A stretch of DNA of 35,609 bases from Syntrophaceae bacterium (GTDB lineage Bacteria > Desulfobacterota > Syntrophia > Syntrophales > Smithellaceae). The DNA is taken from assembly GCA_003142535.1 (NCBI GenBank), contig PLMQ01000030.1:78102-113710 (forward strand), in the 5' to 3' direction. Below are positions 33,756-35,609 of this stretch, one piece after another. The stretch's first letter is position 1; the number at the start of each line of letters is the position of its first letter. Below the pieces are notes generated by a model. That model was given only the letters and a program-made list of their open reading frames with translations, was not told the origin of the DNA and searched no databases. The position numbers and the translations under genes were made by a program.

Positions 33756-34109
33756 GGGGGCGTCACGGTTTCGACGGGGACATTTGAAGTTGTAGAAGCG
33801 TGCCGAGGTTCCTACAGGCCTCGTTAAACAGGTAGGAAACATATAATCGCAGATAACTACGATTACGCTTTAGCCGCTTAGTCGGCTAACGTTCTACCCT
33901 TCTTGCCTGTCAGTTGGAATAGAACGTCATTATGACAGGATAACCAAACTTCTTGCCTGGGGGAGGGCGGCGAAAACTTTACAGGATAGCGCGGTGCGAT
34001 CCAGCCTTAGGGAGCAAACCAGCGTGAAGGTTCTAAAACGAAGGCTACGCACGTAGAAGCTCCAGCGGAAGGTTTTCGGACGCGGGTTCGACTCCCGCCG
34101 CCTCCACCA
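33756..34109 (+). ncRNA. ssrA: Transfer-messenger RNA (tmRNA)
   Basis: tmRNA rescues stalled ribosomes and tags the unfinished protein. The 5' end GGGGGCG (33756-33762) pairs with CGCCTCC (34099-34105) before A and encoded CCA, ending at 34109. The GGTTTCGACGGGGAC segment and the T arm with GGTTCGA near the 3' end are typical. The tag reading frame at 33849-33881 starts with resume codon GCA, encodes ADNYDYALAA and stops at TAG. The LAA end is the usual protease recognition tail. One-piece form, 354 bases, own promoter upstream and terminator downstream. smpB is nearby. Confidence 0.97.
34081..34109 (+). other. Probable attachment site at the ssrA 3' end
   Basis: The T arm and acceptor end of tmRNA are a classic target for P4-type integrases, and a tyrosine recombinase gene of that type begins about 620 bp downstream. 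The 3' end of ssrA is intact here, so this copy would be the restored one. The second direct repeat must lie beyond the window and is not seen, so the site is inferred from context. Confidence 0.4.
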
Positions 34110-34140
34110 GAACGGAATCCAACAAAATCCAAAGAAGTGC

Positions 34141-34168
34141 AAAACCCGTTAGAAATAGCGGGTTTTTT
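34141..34168 (+). terminator. Rho-independent terminator after ssrA
   Basis: AAAACCCG (34141-34148) pairs with CGGGTTTT (34159-34166), with a 10-base loop, and the T run continues to 34168. It is placed 31 bases after the mature end of tmRNA. Confidence 0.85.
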
Positions 34169-34220
34169 CTTGTTTTTTATCCAACGATGTGTTATGAAGT
34201 TCCATAAAATACACTCATTT

Positions 34221-34270
34221 TACGGGTATATTATCTGAAAATACCCGTACGCAAAAAGACGATACCCGTA
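34221..34270. repeat. Three phased copies of ATACCCGTA upstream of the Arm-domain gene
   Basis: The 9-mer ATACCCGTA occurs at 34241-34249 and 34262-34270 on the plus strand and inverted at 34221-34229. Start-to-start distances are 20 and 21 bp, about two helical turns, so all three face the same side of the DNA. The last copy ends 13 bp before ATG 34284. The 114 bases from the ssrA terminator to the gene hold nothing else recognisable. They are probable operators or arm-type sites for the proteins that follow. Confidence 0.75.
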
Positions 34271-34283
34271 TAAAGGAGAAAAC

Positions 34284-34724
34284 ATGCAAAAAAAAATTGA
34301 TTGCTTGTCCGATGCTGAAATCAGAGCCGCACAACAGGAAACTAATCTTTACAGGCTTTACGACGGAGACGGACTATATTTGCTTATCACTCCTTCCGGC
34401 GGTAAGTGGTGGCGTTTTAAATATCGTTTTAATCGTAAAGATAAAAGTTTAGCATTGGGAACCTACCCGGAGGCAGGTATTGAAGATGCGAGGAGAAGCA
34501 GAGATGCAGCAAAAGAACTATTGGCGCAAGGTTTTGATCCGTCTGAAATTCGGAAACGAGAGAAAGCACGTGATAAGGCTGATCGTCTTGAGTCTGCAAG
34601 AATACCTTCTGTGCGTGCCACCTTTGACGGGAAAATTGAAATTTGGAAAGGCAATAATACGATGCGGCTTACATTAGATGAAGCCAGATTTATTGGAACG
34701 TTACTAGCAAATATTACGAGGTGA
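34284..34724 (+). CDS. Stand-alone Arm-DNA-binding-domain protein (DUF4102-type)
   Basis: Residues about 15-105 of this 146-residue protein match the N-terminal Arm-binding domain of P4-type integrases: RLYDGDGLYLLITPSGGKWW, RFKYRF, LALGTYPEAGIEDARR and LLAQGFDPSEIRK. There is no core-binding or catalytic domain. In its place is a short C-terminal segment with IEIWKGNNTMRLTLDEARFI that I do not recognise. A full integrase with its own related domain follows after 4 bp. The protein may compete for arm sites, regulate the operon, or direct excision, all of which is inference. AAAGGAG precedes ATG 34284. Confidence 0.75.
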   Translation: MQKKIDCLSDAEIRAAQQETNLYRLYDGDGLYLLITPSGGKWWRFKYRFNRKDKSLALGTYPEAGIEDARRSRDAAKELLAQGFDPSEIRKREKARDKADRLESARIPSVRATFDGKIEIWKGNNTMRLTLDEARFIGTLLANITR

Positions 34725-34728
34725 TAAT

Positions 34729-35609
34729 ATGCCACTTAATGACATGAAAATCCGTACTGCAAAACCGAAAGAAAAATTCTACAAATTGACTGACGGTGAT
34801 GGTCTCCATCTGCATGTAACAGAGAAAGGAAGTAAACTGTGGCGGTTTCGTTATCGGTTTGGAGGGAAAGAAAAATTACTTGCACTAGGTGCATATCCAG
34901 AAATAAGCCTTCTTGATGCACGTCAAAGACGTGATGAAGCTCGAAGGCAATTAGCGCATGGCATTGATCCTGGTGCCGTTCGTAAAGCACAAAAGGAAGC
35001 TCAAATCGAAGAAGCCGAAACATTCGAAGTGATAGGTCGTGAGTGGCATACCAGATTTTTATCAGAGTGGACACCAGGGCACGGCATCACTATTATGAGT
35101 AGATTGGAACGCGATCTTTTTCCATGGATCGGGAAAATACCAATAACAAAAATTAGAGCTCGTGACATTCTGGAAACATTGCGTCGCGTTGAAAATAGAG
35201 GGGCTTTGGAATCAGCGCATAGGATCAGAACTATTTGCGGGCAAGTGTTCAGATACGCTGTAGCCACTGGGCGTGTAGAGCGTGATCCGTCAGTCGATTT
35301 AAAGGGTGCATTGCCACAGCCACATAAAAGACACATGGCAGCTATAACCGAACCGACAAAAGTTGCAGAACTGTTAATGGCTATTGATGGCTACCAGGGT
35401 GGCTTTGTTGTTAAATGTGCTTTGCAAATTGCCCCTTTGGTTTTTGTCCGTCCAGGTGAATTGCGTCATATGGAATGGACCGAATTAGATTTTGAAAACG
35501 CTCAATGGAATATTCCCTCTGGTAAAATGAAAATGAAAGAGCCCCACCTTGTACCGTTGTCAAAACAAGCAATAGATATTTTAATGGAGCTTCAGAAGTT
35601 AACAGGCGC
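34729..35609 (+). CDS. int: Tyrosine recombinase/integrase, P4 type (partial, runs off the window)
   Basis: The open frame continues through the last base, giving at least 293 residues. It begins with an Arm-binding domain (TDGDGLHLHVTEKGSKLW, LALGAYPEISLLDAR). A core-binding SAM-like region follows (about residues 100-200, WIGKIPITKIRARDIL and ICGQVFRYAVATGRV). The start of the catalytic domain has the first active-site arginine near residue 241 in VRPGELRHMEW. The later His-x-x-Arg and Tyr nucleophile lie beyond 35609. GAGGTGA precedes ATG 34729. Its position by ssrA suggests integration into the tmRNA gene. Confidence 0.93.
   Translation, partial: MPLNDMKIRTAKPKEKFYKLTDGDGLHLHVTEKGSKLWRFRYRFGGKEKLLALGAYPEISLLDARQRRDEARRQLAHGIDPGAVRKAQKEAQIEEAETFEVIGREWHTRFLSEWTPGHGITIMSRLERDLFPWIGKIPITKIRARDILETLRRVENRGALESAHRIRTICGQVFRYAVATGRVERDPSVDLKGALPQPHKRHMAAITEPTKVAELLMAIDGYQGGFVVKCALQIAPLVFVRPGELRHMEWTELDFENAQWNIPSGKMKMKEPHLVPLSKQAIDILMELQKLTG

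Follow-up and report, generated by a model that had tools for sequence, protein, structure and literature searches.

In this Syntrophaceae genome, a gene for an Arm DNA-binding domain stands directly in front of an integrase gene beside ssrA. Arm sites decide between integration and excision by tyrosine integrases. What, then, could a free Arm domain do next to an integrase that carries one of its own? The window, the whole stretch of 35,609 nucleotides that was analysed, is a contig end within a 2.9 Mb genome assembly (G000:C15:78102-113710). At its end, pirin-like and smpB-like genes are followed by ssrA, a hairpin, three repeats, orf146 (gene 1), and int.

The ssrA locus and the gene 1 protein

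The features of the locus, in window coordinates, are as follows.

33756 to 34109, plus strand: ssrA (tmRNA; tag ADNYDYALAA), found with ARAGORN; its 3' end presumably serves as the attachment site (attL)
34142 to 34168, plus strand: terminator-like hairpin AACCCGTTAGAAATAGCGGGTTTTTT, judged by eye
34222 to 34229, minus strand: inverted putative arm site 1, ACGGGTAT, which shares bases with a -10-like TATATT (34227-34232)
34241 to 34248, plus strand: putative arm site 2, ATACCCGT, read from the sequence
34262 to 34269, plus strand: putative arm site 3, ATACCCGT, read likewise, 21 bp from site 2
34284 to 34724, plus strand: gene 1 (orf146), a free Arm DNA-binding domain with a tail, from Pfam, an AF2 model, and the conservation of the tail
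34718 to 34724, plus strand: ribosome-binding site GAGGTGA for int, read likewise, lying over the gene 1 stop codon
34729 to 35609, plus strand: P4/SXT-type tyrosine integrase, N-terminal 293 aa (Pfam PF13356, PF22022, and PF00589), truncated by the contig end

Gene 1 runs from an ATG at 34284 to a TGA at 34724 and encodes 146 aa. The int ATG is at 34729, and the gap is 4 nt, as the first-pass annotation had it. Residues 8-93 of the gene 1 protein match PF13356 (Arm-DNA-bind_3, DUF4102; E=1.1e-24, 86.7 bits against a cut-off of 27), and the integrase matches the same family (E=1.4e-28). Both a score above the curated cut-off and an arm-type fold place gene 1 in this family. A tyrosine recombinase is defined by core-binding and catalytic domains with R-K-HxxR-H/Y, and gene 1 has no match in Pfam to PF22022 (core-binding) or PF00589 (catalytic). 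It also has no Pfam match to AlpA, which the AlpA genes found elsewhere in these elements do have, so it does not class as an AlpA/Xis-type recombination directionality factor (RDF). The C-terminal 40 or so residues have no Pfam match, and nothing convincing was found for them in PHROGs, NCBIfam, or PDB. Two weak single-member matches, phrog_27870 (E 0.0013 over 18 residues) and the excisionase TIGR01764 (E 0.088), were disbelieved. The tail looks by eye like the catalytic beta-hairpin region of the integrase, but derivation from that region was rejected (hhalign probability 0.1%).

The second gene encodes a P4/SXT-type integrase in which the Arm domain, the core-binding domain, and the first catalytic part were all matched in Pfam. 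It stops at the contig end (113710) after 293 aa, whereas homologous loci have 404-405 aa. The C-terminal catalytic residues fall past the contig end, and the frames are complete in related loci. The first-pass description of two adjacent Arm-domain genes, the first with an unmatched tail in place of a catalytic part, thus stands, except that the integrase it called complete is represented by 293 of about 405 aa. The element is likewise broken off here. A search for the remainder of the integrase on the other contigs of the genome turned up two other integrases alone, and no second ssrA end was found as a right-hand attachment site in this genome with up to 2 mismatches allowed.

Two further features of the left end are shared with related loci, gene 1 present or absent. 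The terminator-like hairpin is in the same position in most of them. A TCCAA-like repeat, ATCCAACAAAATCCAAAGAAGTGCA, with a phasing of about 10 bp (34111-34143 in the window), is kept in the same place right after the tRNA or tmRNA end and may represent core-type integrase sites.

The AlphaFold (AF2) model of gene 1 (mean pLDDT 87) consists of the Arm domain, a linking helix (86-106), and a beta-beta-beta-alpha tail (109-145). The modelled Arm domain matches 3ju0, 3jtz, and 3rmp with Z scores of 13.9, 13.0, and 12.4 and 38-46% identity over 75-87 residues. These are Arm domains of the P4-like (DUF4102/IntSXT) HPI and HAI7 integrases, 3rmp being titled for attP recognition, and they share fold and Pfam family with gene 1. 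They belong to full integrases, whereas gene 1 encodes just the Arm and a new tail. The isolated amino-terminal arm-binding domain of lambda Int (1kjk) has a related fold (Z 4.3) and is another case of an Arm separable from the catalytic part. It is a laboratory fragment without a tail, while gene 1 is a natural gene with one.

The tail keeps its form when modelled by itself (pLDDT 88). None of its structure matches is significant; Pur-alpha repeat III is the best (Z 3.9), PC4 has a Z of 3.3, and the SopB C-domain (3kz5) has a Foldseek E of 0.63. Several of these beta-meander/helix modules (SopB C-domain, PUR, PC4) function as dimers. From this topology one may guess that the modelled tail pairs subunits.

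Distribution, selection, and origin of gene 1

Among 59 relatives searched, full-length homologues of gene 1 have 83, 74, and 46% identity. When the tail alone was used as a profile, 9 of 155 genomes in the class proved to carry it, as did 7 loci from named genome records (the closest being Syntrophales/Deltaproteobacteria metagenome assemblies) and one further genome, G372, from another family of the phylum. No match to the tail was found in phages, plasmids, or IMG/VR records. In total, the Arm and tail protein is present in 10 Desulfobacterota genomes of at least two families and at 9 distinct loci, since G010 and G088 share an identical gene 1 protein sequence. These two loci (L053 in G088 and L054 in G010) are from genomes placed in different families, and the protein is beside the same tRNA-Ala in both; either a recent transfer or a binning error could account for this.

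An integrase directly follows gene 1 in all 10 genomes, although some are shortened by a contig end. The recurrence of the gene, with the same C-terminal segment, directly before integrases was what the first-pass annotation had proposed to look for. Where the flank is readable, gene 1 follows a tmRNA end (G000, G125, G148, G149, and G372), tRNA-Ala (G009, G010, and G088), or tRNA-Met (G046). Gene 1 and int are separated by 3-5 nt, except in G046 and G125, where 11 nt lie between them. At the gene 1 stop codon, or right beside it, there is a Shine-Dalgarno-like sequence; the junction is nearly identical in several further loci, and the rest of those examined have variants of it.

Gene 1 is under strong purifying selection. 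Between G000 and G009, the Arm part has a pS of 0.75 and a pN of 0.12, and the tail has a pS of 0.58, a pN of 0.02, and an omega of 0.02. Synonymous changes are nearly saturated and protein changes are few. In some pairs, conservation is higher in the tail than in the Arm part. Recurrence before integrases and purifying selection together uphold the idea of a dedicated, co-transcribed free Arm protein. The reading frame is intact in 8 of the 10 copies. The damaged copies are those of G125, with a frameshift in an A run, and G149, which is broken along with its int. Because two of the ten are damaged, gene 1 may be dispensable after integration. In G125, gene 1 (L057 2705-3207) is split at the A run GGAAAAAAACTTTC, with the Arm and tail conserved on either side, and the frameshift could be a sequencing or assembly error or slippage.

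The origin of gene 1 was explored in a tree of 52 Arm domains, which rests on about 90 columns and in which the deeper forks are weak. The gene 1 Arms fall in one group (support 91/31) with one divergent lone Arm within it. The integrase Arms of the same loci fall in two separate places: those of G046 and G125 are with the lone integrases L018 and L035, and the remaining ones group with L028, L078, and L089. Even so, gene 1 is no fresh copy of the neighbouring integrase, and it has been retained with at least two integrase lineages. Distances among gene 1 Arms and among integrase Arms are correlated (rho 0.79, p 0.01), as would be expected if the two are inherited as a pair.

These observations bear on a rival explanation, which the first-pass annotation had itself named as the one that would undo its proposal. 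Gene 1 could be a decayed integrase copy, the relic of a tandem insertion with a tail acquired by chance. Relics of this kind exist. At a tRNA-Met in G053 (C106, L027/L041), a broken Arm fragment stands before an intact integrase, each with a set of three sites, and this arrangement is a tandem-insertion relic. Gene 1 has the same tail in 10 genomes, an omega well below 1, mostly intact frames, Arms that form a single group apart from the neighbouring integrases, and a tail unlike the integrase profile. A decayed integrase is ruled out on these grounds, save for a very small residual chance.

The putative arm-site operator and the possible roles of gene 1

The sites before gene 1 consist of one inverted and then two direct copies in steps of about 20 bp. 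Among 20,000 dinucleotide-shuffled versions of the stretch, one had an exact arrangement of this kind. The inverted-direct-direct layout is also present in the other gene 1 loci with an intact upstream region. Most lone integrases of the order have it as well, immediately before the int start codon. In the two-gene loci it is before gene 1, and int is without such sites in front. Gene 1 has thus taken the promoter-proximal slot of a putative integrase arm-site operator, which int fills in the lone loci.

The core sequence varies by locus, with all three copies changing together. It is TACCCGTA, TACCCGCA, TACCCCC, or GTTGCCCC in gene 1 loci, and AGCCCCCA, GGTACCCA, or TACACCC in lone integrase loci. 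The spacing between sites 2 and 3 is 19-22 bp across the loci, about two helical turns, which places both on one face. The first site covers the -10-like TATATT, and in G148 a TTGACA is 17 bp upstream of the -10-like box. Site 1 is thus presumed to overlap the promoter. Site and Arm divergence are correlated to a similar degree for gene 1 (rho 0.60, p 0.09) and Int (rho 0.62, p 0.06), and this covariation over 7 loci does not tell which Arm domain reads the sites. G000 itself possesses three P4-type integrases, on C57 (L002), on C35 (L003), and in the window. They share the layout and differ in their sites (AGCCCCCA, GGTACCCA, and ATACCCGT, respectively), as if arm-site specificities were held distinct within one cell.

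The simplest reading, preferred here with a probability of roughly 0.5, is that gene 1 encodes a free arm-site-binding regulator that would repress its operon, compete with Int, and keep the integrated element stable. The Arm domain would bind the same arm-type (P') sites in attL as the integrase, and the tail would probably mediate subunit pairing or contact with Int. Since site 1 sits on the presumed promoter, binding there would repress the gene 1-int operon. Because recombination requires Int on the arm sites, the free protein would in addition compete with it or alter the way in which Int fills them. The integrated element would be kept stable until Int or AlpA levels rise. The brake or switch role put forward in the first-pass annotation is plausible, and the overlap of the three-site operator with the presumed promoter makes a regulator more likely. 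Of this scheme, the gene, its domain, its conservation together with Int, and the site layout are observed. Gene 1 binding to the three putative sites is probable, its repression of the operon is about an even bet, and competition with Int and pairing by the tail are likewise inferred.

The site layout is also compatible with a positive role, and the main rival is an architectural helper, which is possible though clearly less likely than repression. Gene 1 would then bridge or pre-fill arm sites and aid a productive Int complex, promoting integration or excision. Its tight translational coupling to int would suit a stoichiometric partner, the spacing of sites 2 and 3 on one face would suit such a complex, and the tail offers a possible contact surface. 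Lone integrases with the same three-site layout work without gene 1, however, and repression more readily explains why site 1 overlaps the presumed promoter.

Two other roles are improbable. Gene 1 could replace AlpA/Xis as the excision switch. It is, by its domain, a small DNA-binding protein adjoining int, and regulators that bind att regions can switch direction. It has no HTH, its fold is that of an Arm domain, and AlpA genes were found downstream in each of the three elements (G009, G088, and G090) with a long enough downstream region. Because AlpA is still present in these three, gene 1 is an addition to AlpA and not a substitute for it, and the first-pass suggestion that it stands in for AlpA/Xis was not borne out. 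Equally doubtful is a sensor-type repressor, similar to satellite master repressors, in which the tail would dock a signal from a helper phage or the host, and the integrase operon would thereby be released. The stronger conservation of the tail in some pairs would suit this, as would the content of the G009 element (L099 2236-9016). This small element has a satellite-like gene set: downstream of int, Pfam recognises AlpA (E 6e-10) and a Prim-Pol primase (E 2e-31), next come genes of 191 and 538 aa without a Pfam match, and there are other unknown genes. By order and size, the 191-aa and 538-aa genes are a possible terminase pair. The terminase likeness is one of arrangement only, this was the sole element read at length, and no helper or inducer is known.

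Relation to known integration modules

The repressor reading has a precedent in the KplE1 prophage of E. coli, in which intS is repressed both by its own product and by the RDF, and an arm site of IntS lies across the -10 box (PMC2951348). Modules of tRNA and int in that orientation were proposed to share this arrangement in general (PMC2951348). The loci described here conform to it, as inferred from sequence: a tRNA or tmRNA is followed by int on the same strand, the presumed promoter is inside attL, and arm-type repeats lie over it. They differ in that the KplE1 repressors are IntS and the RDF TorI, with no separate Arm-domain protein in the operon.

AlpA is the usual directionality factor. 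The AlpA/Vis/Xis RDFs resemble gene 1 as small DNA-binding partners of integrases in tRNA-linked elements. AlpA is of the HTH type, while gene 1 is an Arm domain that coexists with AlpA. The parts and the operator logic of the gene 1 module are of known kinds. The open-access literature yielded no account of an Arm protein that has its own gene next to an integrase, and it is this free Arm partner for which no earlier description was found. It is tentatively proposed, with less confidence than the regulator role itself, that gene 1 represents a new class of integrase accessory. Such a free subunit would bind arm sites, would have separated once from integrase Arm domains and stayed with at least two integrase lineages, and would act through its own pairing tail both to repress the operon and to switch directionality or occupancy at attL.

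An Arm domain that occurs naturally as its own gene would allow arm-site occupancy to be studied apart from catalysis. The conserved three-site layout would give a simple signature by which such operators can be found and tested in poorly studied bacteria. Gene 1 would also show a second route, besides AlpA/Xis, by which small elements control their integrase.
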